This document shows positions 8,353 to 57,821 of a stretch of DNA of 64,000 nt, in pieces. The translations under genes and the position numbers were made by a program. The stretch's first letter is position 1, and every line of letters begins with the position of its first letter. The DNA comes from Labia minor (taxonomy: Eukaryota; Arthropoda; Insecta; Dermaptera; Spongiphoridae): positions 46,144,734-46,208,733 of the forward strand of contig OY720350.1 in the NCBI GenBank assembly GCA_963082975.1. The letters are read 5' to 3'. Under the pieces are notes generated by a model that was not told where the DNA came from, ran no database searches, and worked only from the letters and a program-made list of their open reading frames with translations.

Positions 8353-11300
8353 ATGGCATTACACGTACCAAAAGCTCCAGGGTTTTCCCAAATGTTAAAA
8401 GAAGGAGCCAGAGTAAGCTCTTTTTGAAATTTTATTAACCTCTTAAATCTCACATGGTAACCATAAAAGGGCATTATATTCATTAGATGCTTTTTGCCTC
8501 AGTATTTTTCAGGTTTGGAAGAAGCTGTATTTCGAAATATTAATGCTTGTATTCTATTTGCACAAACAGTAAAAACCGCCTATGGCCCCAATGGCATGAA
8601 TAAAATGGTTATTAACCATTTAGAAAAATTGTTTGTTACTAATGATGCAGCTACAATTATTCGAGAGTTGGAAGTTGAACATCCAGCAGCCAAATTAATG
8701 ATTTTAGCTTCACAAATGCAAGAACAAGAAGTAGGGGATGGTACAAATTTTGTTATTATTTTTGCTGGAGCCCTCTTAGAACATGCCGAAGATTTATTAA
8801 GAATGGTATACAATTACTTATTATTTAAGAAATAATTTCAAATTTATCAATATAAAAATATATATATTTTTTTAAATATATTTAAAAGGTATATATTCGA
8901 TCCCCCCTACACCTCGCAGAATTTGATGAAACTTCGCCAGTTGATTCTTTGATTAATTCTAAGAAACTTTTTCCTTAGGCATTTCTTTGGAGAACTTCTA
9001 GTTTTCGAGATAAAAAGGATTAAAGATTGAATATCAATCCATTGATATCCCATTTAGCTACCATGTCTTATCAGGTTGACCAGCAGAGGGCGCGACTAAT
9101 TTTAGGTTTTTTCAGTTCGGATTGTATATAGAAAAATTAAAAAATTAATTAATTAAATAATTTTCCTATATCCAAACCGAACAGAAAAAACCAAAAATTA
9201 GTGAATATGTGAATAATTAGTGAATTAGTCAATGAAAATTTCTTAATGGCTGCACATTTCGACATTCATAACCATCTAATTAATATTCAATCTTTAATCC
9301 TTTTTATCTCGAAAACTACAAGTTCTCCAAAGAAATGCCTAAGGAAAAAGTTTCTTAGAATTAATCAAAGAATCAACTGGCGAAGTTTCATCATATTCTG
9401 CGAGGTGTAGGGGGGATCGAATATATACCATTTAAAATATTTGATCAGAAGTTTTTTTTACAATAAATAGACATCGAAAATTCCTTTTAAGACATTTGAC
9501 ATAAAGTAAATGAATGATTAATTATTAATTATTATTATTATTAATTTTAATTAATACTGTTCTATTGAATCATTTGAGTCAAACTTGACATCATTCAAAA
9601 GAAACGGAATGGCAAATTAACTAGTCTTATTAATAAAATATACAATTTTAAGGGACTCACTCCAACGGAAGTTGCTGATGGTTATGAACTTGCTCTAGAA
9701 AAAGCATTAGAGATTTTACCCAAACTCACCTGCCACGAAATTAAAGATTATAGAAACGAAGAAGAAATTAAAAAAGGAATTCGTAGTTCAATCATGTCTA
9801 AACAATATGGCTATGAAGACTTTTTATCAAATCTTTTGACTAAAGCTTGTGGTAATTTTTGATACTTAAAATATAATATTAGTTATAAATTATAAACAAA
9901 TTAATACATTTTTTTGAGCCACTTATTACTATAGTAATTTATAAAATTAATTTTTCTCTTTTATTTGATTAAACATATTTTTTTTGTAATTTAGAATAAT
10001 TATCGATAATTTAACTTAGAATATTTTAATCTTACATTTGTTTCAGTGTCTATTTTACCGGAAAATACAACTTTTAATGTTGATAACATTCGTGTCTGCA
10101 AAATATTGGTCAGTAATTTGTTAACATCCAAATAAATATTCAATTTGTCACTTTTAAAAAATATTGAAATATTTAATAATTGTTAATTTTAATAGGGTTC
10201 TGGAATTACAAGTTCTCAAATGATTCACGGAATGGTATTTAAACGTCATGTTGAAGGGGATGTCACAAAAATAACACAAGCCAAGATCGTTGTTTTCACC
10301 TGCCCACTAGATATTTCACAGACGGAGACCAAGGTTATATATAAATTATATTTAAAATAAAAACTAAATCGTTCTTAGATTAACATAATAAATATTTAAA
10401 TTTAGGGAACAGTATTGATTAAATCAGCGGAGGAATTGTTGGAATTCAGTAGAGGTGAAGAAACACTTTTGGAACAACAAATTCGTTCCATTTCCGAAAC
10501 AGGGGCAAAAGTTGTTGTCGCTGGAGCTAAATTTGGAGATCTCGCTCTCCATTACCTCAATAAATATGGAATGATGGGTGTACGATTAAATAGCAAATTT
10601 GACATAAGACGCCTTTGTAAAACGGTAGGAGCCACTGCTTTACCAAGGGTAACCGCACCCACAAAAGAAGAAATGGGTTATGCTGATATAGTTCAGGTAA
10701 AATTGAAAATTAAAATTAATTAAATGTTTCATAATTTAGAAACAAATATAATTAATTTAACTATTGTTTTTAAAAAATTTACAATTATTTTTATTTTAAT
10801 AAAATAAAGGTCGATGAAGTTGGAGATACCCAAGTTGTTATCTTCAAGCTTGAAGGAAATGAATCTCGTATTGCGACAATTGTTATTCGAGGTTCAACTG
10901 AAAACTACATGGATGATATTGAAAGAAGTATCGATGATGGTATTAACACATTTAAATGTCTCACAAGAGTAAGTAATTTAATATAAATTTACTAGGTAGA
11001 TTTTACAACAAATTTATCAAATTTATGATATTACGAGGTATATCATCTTTTTATTAAATTGAATGTCGGAGGTTATCGATGTCCAAAAAATTATATAATA
11101 GAAGGATTCTATTATGTAATATATATATTTTTTTATTAGCCTTTTTAAACTTTTATTCATTTATTTTCAAATTTACTCTCCTTAGGACTTTTATTCAATT
11201 TTAAAATGTATTAATTTAATATTTATATTTTCTCTTTTTCGATCTAAAAACTGAACATGATTGAAATGTAAAATTAACAAATAAAAATTTAATATTTATT

Positions 11301-27775: not shown

Positions 27776-27810
27776 TAATTTAAATATGTATATGATTAAT
27801 ATGAAGCCGG

Positions 27811-28350
27811 TATCTATACGATCCCCCCTGCACCTCGCAGAATTTGATGAAACTTCGCCAGTTGATTCTTTGATTAATTCTAAGAAACTTTTTCCTTAGG
27901 CATTTCTTGGGAGAACTTCTAGTTTTCGAGATAAAAAGGATTAAAGATTGGATTTCAATCCATTTATATCCCATTTAGCTACCATGTCTTATCAGTTTGA
28001 CCAGCAGAGGGCGCGACTAATTTTCGGTTTTTTTCAGTTCGGATTGTATATAGAAAAATTAAAAAATTAATTAATTAAATAATTTTCCTATATCCAAACC
28101 GAACAGAAAAAACCAAAAATTAGTGAATATGTGAATAATTAGTGAATTAGTCAATGAAAATTTCTTAATGGCTGCACATTTCGACATTCATAACCATCTA
28201 ATTGATATTCAATCTTTAATCCTTTTTATCTCGAAAACTACAAGTTCTCCCAAGAAATGTCTAAGAAAAAATGTTTCTTAGAATTAATCAAAGAATCAAC
28301 TGGCGAAGTTTCATCAAATTCTGCGAGGTGTAGGGGGGATCGTATAGATA
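27811..28350. mobile_element. Palindromic MITE carrying a CTCF-type motif, copy 2
   Basis: About 540 bp, co-linear with copy 1 (8888-9429) over its whole length, including the asymmetric interior. Ends are TATCTATACGATCCCCCC and its inverse. As in copy 1 the outer bases match between the two ends of the copy but differ from the other copy (TCTATACG here, TATATTCG in copy 1). It lies upstream of CNOT11, next to the THAP relic. Confidence 0.87.
28001..28014 (+). promoter_or_regulatory. CTCF-type consensus within MITE copy 2
   Basis: CCAGCAGAGGGCGC again, identical to copy 1, although bases a few positions away differ between the copies (AGGTTGAC versus AGTTTGAC before it, TTTTAGG versus TTTTCGG after it). 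Confidence 0.55.
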
Positions 28351-28774
28351 TAATATACAAGTAATTTTCCCTAAATCAGCGCCCACGAGGGGGTGGTAGC
28401 GCCCACTTAGGGAATCACTGATCTAAATATTTGTATATATAGATATAATATAATATATAATTTATATTATATATTTCTATAATAATAAAACCTACCTTAT
28501 AAACCATTTTGTTGGTCTGTGGTTTCAACTCTCCTCATTTAAATGTCCCCCCTTGTATGTGGCACCCTCTACTTTGTTTGAATAACATGTGTTTTTGCTT
28601 ATTTTTAATAACTAAAGTCTGCTAAAGTCCCCGACTATCCATAAATTGAATAATTATTAAATGCCAACAATCTTTTATAATTATGAGATGAAATGTAATA
28701 AATCTATTTGTTGAACCTCTATAATATATATATATATACTTGGTATTAAAAAAATAAATTATTTTAATTACACA
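28351..28774. other. 5' flank of CNOT11 with a possible hAT end
   Basis: GC-rich patch at about 28369-28423 (AGCGCCCACGAGGGGGTGG, AGCGCCCACTTAGGGAATCA) whose inverse begins CAGTGATTCCCTAAGTGGGC, similar to many hAT-type termini. No partner end is seen. The rest should hold the CNOT11 promoter and leader; nothing specific is recognised. Confidence 0.4.
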
Positions 28775-55732: not shown

Positions 55733-55961
55733 ATATTTATTATATAAATTAATATTCATTTAAAATGATATTAAATCATTTATTTAAAATGATTTAAAAC
55801 ATTTATTAAAATGATTTAAAACATTCATTTAAAATGATATTAAAACATTCATTTAAAATCATATTAAAACATAGCTAGTAAATAATAATTCGTTATATTT
55901 ATATTATATTTATATTATATTTATATTATTGTAGTTCAATGTTAATAAATTACTCCATAAA

Positions 55962-57821
55962 ATGGATCGTTGGCTACAAACTGGTTCAACACAGAAACGG
56001 AAAGAATCAGATGATGAGGCATCAACAGCAAACTCTACCAAGAAACGCAAAACTAGAAAATATTCGGATGATTATTTATCATTTGGATTTACTTATATTT
56101 GCAACAATGATGTGGAAAGACCAGTCTGCGTTCTATGTCAGGAAAGTTTATCCAATGAAAGTATGAAACCTGCTAATCTCAGACGTCATTTACAAACAAA
56201 GCACAGCGAGCATGTTAGTAAGTCTATCGAATTTTTTAAAATGAAAAAAGAAGAACTTAATTCAAGTCAGAAATTGATGGTAAAGACGGGATCTGGTGGT
56301 ATGAGTAAGAAAGCAGTAATGGCATCATATGAAGTAGCTCTACTTATTGCTAAAGCAGGAAAGCCGCATAATATAGCAGAGCAATTAATTCTTCCTGCTA
56401 CAAAAGTAATTACAAATATAATGTTAGGAACTAAAGCAGCAAACGATATAAATTTGATTTCATTATCAAATGATACGGTTAAGAATAGGATTGAAGACAT
56501 GTCATGTAATATAAAAGAAGAATTAATATCGAGAGTGCGCAAAAGTCACTATTACTCATTACAATTGGATGAAAGTACTGATGTCACTAATAATGCCAAT
56601 TTGTTAGCTTTCATTAGATATGAGTTTGAAAATCAAATACAAGAAGATGTATTGTTTTGTGATTCACTACCTTCACGAACGACAGCTAATGACATATTTA
56701 ACAGTTTGAATAATTTTATAACCGAAAATGAAATAGAGTGGCCAAAATGTGTTGGAATTTGCACTGATGGTGCTCGTGCAATGTCAGGTACAAGAACTGG
56801 ATTGATTGCTCTTATTAAAAATGTTGCGCCTCAGGTTGTTTGGATACATTGCTGCATTCACAGAGAATCATTAGCAGCCAAAAATATGTCACCAGATTTG
56901 AAAAGAACATTAGACGAAGTAGTTAAAATTGTCAATTTCATTAAGGCTCGTCCACTTAATTCCAGAGTTTTTAAAATTTTGTGTGAGGAAATGGGTAGTC
57001 AACATACACATTTATTATTACATACAGATGTACGTTGGTTGTCCCGCGGGAAAGTACTCATTCGCCTTTTTGAGCTTCGAGATGAAATACGATTGTTTTT
57101 AATAGATGCGCATTTTGAACTGACCGAATGTTTCAATGATTTTATCTGGTTAGCTAAGGTGGCTTACTTGACTGATATTTTTACAAAATTGAACGAACTT
57201 AATTTGAGCCTGCAAGGTACTGTTGTAAATATATTTAAAGTTGAAGATAAAATAGAAGCAATGATTAAAAAAATCGACTTGTGGTCGAAACGCATCCAGA
57301 ACGGTGTATATGAGTCTTTTCCAACTCTCAATGATTTCATAGAAAGCTCCAGTGAAAAATTGCTTAATCAAACGCGTCAATTATTTGTTGAACATTTAAT
57401 TACTTTGAAAAGCAACTTCAGGAAGTATTTTTCTACTCCTGATCCTTGCAATAACTGGATCAGAGATCCATTTAATATGGAAATTACAAATGCTAAACAT
57501 TTATCTGCACCTGAACAAGATATTCTCGTGGAATTATCATGTGATACAACTTATAAACTAAAATTTAACAAAACTGAATTGAGCAACTTTTGGTTACTTC
57601 TCAGGTCAGATTATCCTGCGCTTGCAAATAAAGCACTTCAACACTTGATTCCATTCTACACAACATATTTATGCGAACAAGCTTTTTCGGTACTATTTTA
57701 TATTAAGTCTAAATATAGAAACAAATTAAATGTAGAGCCGGATCTTAGATTAAAAGTTTCCAATATTAAGCCAGATATTGAGATTCTTGTTTCAAGAAAA
57801 CAACTGCATACATCTCATTAA
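55962..57821 (+). CDS. hAT transposase with BED zinc finger (ZBED5-like)
   Basis: 619 residues, no internal stops. Starts MDRWLQTG; a basic stretch KKRKTRKYS follows. A BED-type finger is at about 57-82 (CVLC ... HLQTKH). The RNase H-like catalytic core is seen in LQLDESTDVTNNANLL (first Asp near residue 203), VGICTDGARAMSGTRTG (second Asp) and WIHCCIHRESLAAK. The C-terminal hAT dimerisation region reads FWLLLRSDYPALANKALQHL and CEQAFSVLFYIKSKYRNKL. It resembles the transposases that gave rise to vertebrate ZBED5/EPM2AIP1/SCAND3-type genes. Bounded by intact element ends, so a working transposon gene rather than a domesticated host gene. The ATG at 55962 fits the family start; an overlapping frame from 55939 is a shadow. 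Confidence 0.93.
   Translation: MDRWLQTGSTQKRKESDDEASTANSTKKRKTRKYSDDYLSFGFTYICNNDVERPVCVLCQESLSNESMKPANLRRHLQTKHSEHVSKSIEFFKMKKEELNSSQKLMVKTGSGGMSKKAVMASYEVALLIAKAGKPHNIAEQLILPATKVITNIMLGTKAANDINLISLSNDTVKNRIEDMSCNIKEELISRVRKSHYYSLQLDESTDVTNNANLLAFIRYEFENQIQEDVLFCDSLPSRTTANDIFNSLNNFITENEIEWPKCVGICTDGARAMSGTRTGLIALIKNVAPQVVWIHCCIHRESLAAKNMSPDLKRTLDEVVKIVNFIKARPLNSRVFKILCEEMGSQHTHLLLHTDVRWLSRGKVLIRLFELRDEIRLFLIDAHFELTECFNDFIWLAKVAYLTDIFTKLNELNLSLQGTVVNIFKVEDKIEAMIKKIDLWSKRIQNGVYESFPTLNDFIESSSEKLLNQTRQLFVEHLITLKSNFRKYFSTPDPCNNWIRDPFNMEITNAKHLSAPEQDILVELSCDTTYKLKFNKTELSNFWLLLRSDYPALANKALQHLIPFYTTYLCEQAFSVLFYIKSKYRNKLNVEPDLRLKVSNIKPDIEILVSRKQLHTSH

Follow-up and report, generated by a model that had tools for sequence, protein, structure and literature searches.

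Can a small DNA transposon distribute CTCF sites through an insect genome, and do sites spread in this way come to serve as insulators? The question is raised by a stretch of 64,000 nucleotides from Labia minor (Dermaptera; contig OY720350.1, positions 46,144,734 to 46,208,733), hereafter the window. It holds two copies of a miniature inverted-repeat transposable element (MITE) of ~540 bp, each with a single CCAGCAGAGGGCGC that fits the CTCF core consensus CCASYAGRKGGCRS at every base and lies within a stretch that is not mirrored in the opposite half. A preliminary description of the window had reported both copies and their motifs, and the positions held up: copy 1 (8888..9429, 542 bp, plus strand, delimited from its sequence and by comparison of copies) carries the motif at 9080..9093, and copy 2 (about 27809..28352, plus strand) carries it at 28001..28014, both on the plus strand in a pattern scan. 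We use the consensus as given there, a vertebrate-style form that permits G or T at position 9. Our analysis suggests that the MITE scatters oriented potential CTCF sites and that most copies are probably functionless and lose the site with age. This reading, which we favor, builds on the element itself, its copy number, its share of the consensus sites on contig C1, a CTCF gene in the same genome and decay of the motif at about the rate of the element, all of which are observed.

The exact 14-mer CCAGCAGAGGGCGC occurs 240 times (113 + 127) in the 604 Mb, 71-contig assembly, and a reversed-pattern control returned 0. Matches to the full consensus number 435 (207 + 228) versus 15 for the control. 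Sites with T at position 9 (T-type) account for 88 of these versus 10 in the control, leaving by subtraction 347 with G (G-type) versus 5. On contig C1 a hand count gave 83 full-consensus places, made up of the exact 14-mer (44), further G-type sites (18) and T-type sites (21). All 44 exact places were inspected, and every one belongs to a MITE copy, a MITE fragment or a diverged relative; all 18 remaining G-type places were fetched, and 14 proved to be MITE relatives. None of the 19 T-type places fetched from the 21 lies in a MITE copy. One T-type place (L147) has a weak 47-nucleotide match near its site to family A, the MITE family of the window copies. The MITE superfamily holds 58 of the 83 full-consensus places on C1 (70%), exceeding all other C1 sequence, and with hundreds of full-consensus cores in the genome the proposal that this family spreads CTCF-type sites is borne out.

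CTCF is present across panarthropods (PMC5094011). The preliminary description had suggested checking for a CTCF gene, and one lies at C5:48.713 Mb, where an insect-type CTCF query matches at 83-88% identity. The exons cover the gene from the last part of finger 1 through finger 11. At this locus (L162; G000:C5:48712700-48717200), exons for fingers 4 to 11 are 78-92% identical to the insect-type query, and the exon that runs from the last part of finger 1 through finger 2 into finger 3 is 64% identical to human CTCF. A query with the human CTCF fingers was too unspecific here because, among the matches listed, it found only generic C2H2 matches at 34-43% identity. Most listed matches of both protein searches fall on contig C10, which is rich in C2H2 zinc-finger genes.

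Are the scattered sites retained? The preliminary description had proposed that the family seeds insulators, and had named, among the observations that would speak against this, a motif that decays no more slowly than its element. Such decay is largely what we found, the biased 40-copy set discussed below being the one that differs. Among the 30 copies closest to the window copy, a set picked by likeness to a motif-bearing query, the motif diverges from the consensus by 1.9% and the element by 2.2%. Across family A, 59 of 69 copies preserve the motif exactly; for nine neighboring 14-mers to its right the figure is 45-61 of 65-66. The record of the motif is thus usual for 14-mers nearby. For the two copies in the window it is indeed unchanged while nearby bases differ, but these do not count as independent events, as both belong to one family. 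Scored against the CTCF consensus, 60 of the 69 copies have no mismatch and 9 have one. Selection on the motif was sought in several sets of copies from families A and B and among older copies and was not clearly found. Conservation of the motif beyond that of the rest of the element, as looked for in exapted insulators, was likewise not seen, with the biased 40-copy set pointing the opposite way. With the motif eroding about as quickly as its surroundings in the element, nothing clearly suggests that copies have been retained as insulators; functional insulator seeding is possible, but sequence evolution gives no indication of it.

Several observations weigh against the reading of scattered, mostly functionless sites. 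Over the 69 family A copies, per-site divergence is 1.2% in the motif, 1.8-1.9% in its unmirrored neighbors and 2.8-4.4% in the arms and inner palindrome. In 40 copies chosen for an exact 21-mer near the motif, which are a subset of the 69 biased toward young copies and anchor-adjacent sequence, the motif diverges by 0.7% versus 3.3% for the element and is intact in 37, and 70 of 489 windows of the element beat its conservation. The exact motif is also present at 65 of 71 exact-21-mer places, counted by hand on C1, C2 and C4 to 31.42 Mb; conversely, on C1 and C2, where the motif occurs at 88 places, 55 of them also have the exact 21-mer, again by hand count. Since sets defined by the exact 21-mer favor young copies and sequence adjacent to the anchor, we read the apparent conservation as age structure, not as selection. 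A further point concerns position 9. The C1 sites outside the MITE comprise 21 with T and 4 with G, whereas the MITE sites have G, so the form of the MITE site differs from that of most other consensus sites on this contig, and host CTCF may therefore bind the MITE version less well.

Older relatives of the element point to how the site may have arisen. A sister family, B, was found through an old copy adjoining locus L017. Its 39 copies (query copy included) have a mean divergence of 12.0%, and the 14-mer homologous to the motif diverges by 13.2%, with 358 of 535 windows less diverged. Between the consensus sequences of A and B, 11 of the 14 motif sites agree, a level equaled or beaten by 304 of 534 windows, the motif's included. 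The best match to the CTCF consensus in family B has one mismatch in 2 copies, two in 17, three in 11, four in 7 and five in 2. A flank-anchored pattern identified 815 older copies with intact flanks; the 100 of these that were listed, all on C1, include 2 with the full consensus, 26 with one mismatch, 40 with two and 32 with three or more. The left anchor at up to two mismatches is found at 1,393 genomic places, which may overlap with the 815. Common to the older subfamilies is CAGAGGGC, but these subfamilies differ at positions 2, 4 and 13 of the consensus. The unmirrored left stretch has probably long carried a near-CTCF core of the CAGAGGGC form. In the youngest family, A, the site fits the CTCF core consensus completely and has multiplied, so that transposition has dispersed hundreds of oriented CTCF-type cores in a genome that also has a CTCF gene. 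We infer that CTCF can bind at least some young, accessible copies, as it does at transposon-borne sites in mammals, and that most copies would be without function, losing the site as they age.

The near-matches of the older copies also bear on the alternative that survives best, that a GC-rich patch in an AT-rich element drifted to the CTCF consensus in one subfamily by pure coincidence and is unbound. We consider this unlikely. The older subfamilies are indeed one or two mismatches away and there is no clear constraint; moreover, a CTCF-like 14-mer that misses the consensus by one base is found in a second repeat, showing that repeats can acquire such a resemblance. However, the CCAGCAGAGGGCGC sites are the only matches to CCASYAGRKGGCRS at up to one mismatch in the 64 kb, where about 0.01 would be expected, although copies of a single element family amount to one occurrence and the motif was chosen after the fact. 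A little more doubtful is the idea that the CAGAGGGC core belongs to the transposon's own internal equipment, for example as a site for a transposase or host factor, with its CTCF likeness incidental. The core persists in older subfamilies with different flanks and directly adjoins the inner palindrome, but it is conserved no better than many other 14-mers of the element, and no transposase partner was found at the 2 of 56 IS1595-type loci inspected. Least probable of the alternatives is that the MITE actively seeds functional insulators, with CTCF binding many copies and selection keeping a fraction: the CTCF gene, the family A copies at zero or one mismatch, the superfamily's 70% share on C1, the low motif divergence in the anchored 40-copy set and the functional transposon-borne CTCF anchors of mammals (PMC6979391) speak for it, but in young and old copies alike the motif diverges about as much as the element does on average, other genomic sites differ at position 9, and in Drosophila 27 of 2,267 CTCF sites overlap transposable elements (PMC3491045).

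How does the element compare with known systems? Both DNA transposons and short interspersed nuclear elements (SINEs) carrying CTCF sites are established in mammals (PMC6979391), and about 20% of CTCF sites overlap transposable elements in rodents, compared with the ~1% that the Drosophila count represents (PMC3491045). Like rodent B2 SINEs and other mammalian transposable elements, the MITE family comes with its own CTCF core and thereby multiplies oriented sites. B2, however, is a retrotransposon with measured CTCF binding, whereas this MITE carries potential sites. Closer in kind are mammalian hAT-Charlie and MER20 (the MER20 example being from mouse), which are DNA transposons with CTCF sites (PMC6979391); the present element differs from them in its long palindromic arms, its GGTA tips and its insect host. 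Outside vertebrates, transposable elements are tied to loop or hub architecture in ctenophore and placozoan chromatin, although ctenophore loops use other architectural proteins, CTEP1/2 (PMC12221973). Among the papers listed in the literature searches, none reported CTCF sites on an arthropod MITE. A genome with a CTCF gene in which most of the full-consensus cores belong to a single MITE superfamily, as they do on C1, would make transposon rewiring of insect CTCF directly testable, while the near-neutral decay of the motif lowers the expectation that it occurs. We hold it improbable that this recently active insect MITE both supplies most strong CTCF-core sequences of its host and changes CTCF binding, in a lineage with two alternative finger-4 isoforms (described below). 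If it did change CTCF binding, insect CTCF landscapes would be open to rewiring by transposons, unlike the picture in Drosophila.

The anatomy of the element is clearest in copy 1, which starts with GGTA, ends with TACC and is flanked by 8-bp target-site duplications of ATTTAAAA (8880..8887 and 9430..9437). Its outer arms of ~150 nucleotides, at 8888..9038 on the plus strand and 9279..9429 on the minus strand, are 97% complementary (8881-9038 versus 9279-9436). Between them lies an inner palindrome of 54 + 54 nucleotides at 9095..9202 (9095-9148/9149-9202), bordered by two unmirrored stretches, 9039-9094 on the left and 9203-9278 on the right. The motif falls in the left one, immediately outside the inner palindrome, in agreement with the earlier placement of one motif per copy in the unmirrored part of the left half. 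No open frame of at least 120 amino acids is present within the element. Copy 2 is 96.7% identical to copy 1 and has a decayed right tip and no duplication. Across 47 full-length copies, copy 1 among them, the two arms of one copy differ by 1.4%, and a given arm compared between copies differs by 6.4%; the variable tip bases are symmetric at both ends in most copies. The lower difference within than between copies, together with the symmetric tips, argues that the arms are homogenized within copies by concerted evolution.

The element is a non-autonomous DNA transposon, specifically a MITE with long terminal inverted repeats and an 8-bp target duplication. It combines the features that define a MITE: terminal inverted repeats without coding capacity, a target duplication of fixed length and high copy number. 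An exact 8-bp duplication flanks 15 of 39 full-length copies with recognizable ends and is absent from the other 24; it is longer in none. The 39 include two copies, L074 and L090, that have common flanks. A TA target duplication was rejected, as across copies the ends read GGTA...TACC and are accompanied by the 8-bp duplication. An 8-bp duplication and GG tips are features of Merlin elements, and in both respects this MITE is compatible with Merlin-type MITEs. The genome contains 56 matches to IS1595/Merlin-type transposases. At the IS1595-type loci inspected (L183 and L184, 2 of the 56), neither termini in common with the element nor a partner transposase was found.

The CTCF gene itself contains two tandem versions of a 137-nucleotide exon that encodes finger 4 together with the last part of finger 3 (L162:1868-2185, minus strand). 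Each version has its own splice sites, and 44 nucleotides separate the two. Between them, 20 of 45 codons differ silently and 5 of 45 change an amino acid. All but one of these five amino-acid changes fall within the recognition helix or directly after it, and the helix end reads LKR in one version and MRN in the other; by our numbering, R is replaced by N at the +6 position of the finger 4 helix. Because 137 is not a multiple of three, using both versions would shift the frame, and the exons therefore look mutually exclusive. Judging from their sequence, they are probably mutually exclusive and give CTCF isoforms of different specificity. Among the papers listed in the literature searches, none reported mutually exclusive exons in insect CTCF. 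A pattern devised for the second isoform, CCASYAGRTAGCRS, occurs 226 times versus 12 for its control. Among the first 100 of the 226 places, those listed, 80 are a single repeat-like 14-mer, CCAGTAGATAGCGC, which departs from the CTCF consensus at one base. Two copies of this 14-mer often face in opposite directions at a spacing of 200-800 bp, as they would in another inverted-repeat element (for example, G000:C1:20679519-20679745 and C4:23749910-23750135). The form CCAGTAGATGGCGC, which is one base from another repeat's 14-mer, makes up 14 of the 88 T-type sites, L147 included. Some T-type places are themselves repeat-borne, L144 sharing its repeat with L145 and L146 with L180.

Copy 1 has frames on both sides, 8467-8835 and 9578-9862, that match the Pfam family Cpn60_TCP1, and since both flanks match the TCP-1 family it lies in an intron of a TCP-1 chaperonin gene. 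We take this gene to be CCT theta. Copy 2 is adjoined by a GC-rich stretch, 28370-28420, that ends in GGGAATCACTG. Stretches resembling it, with hAT-like tips, carry a full CTCF consensus in L163, in L174 and perhaps in L167. Finally, an open frame of 628 amino acids lies on the plus strand at 55935-57821; it resembles a hAT/ZBED5-type transposase and has no Pfam match at an E-value of 0.001.
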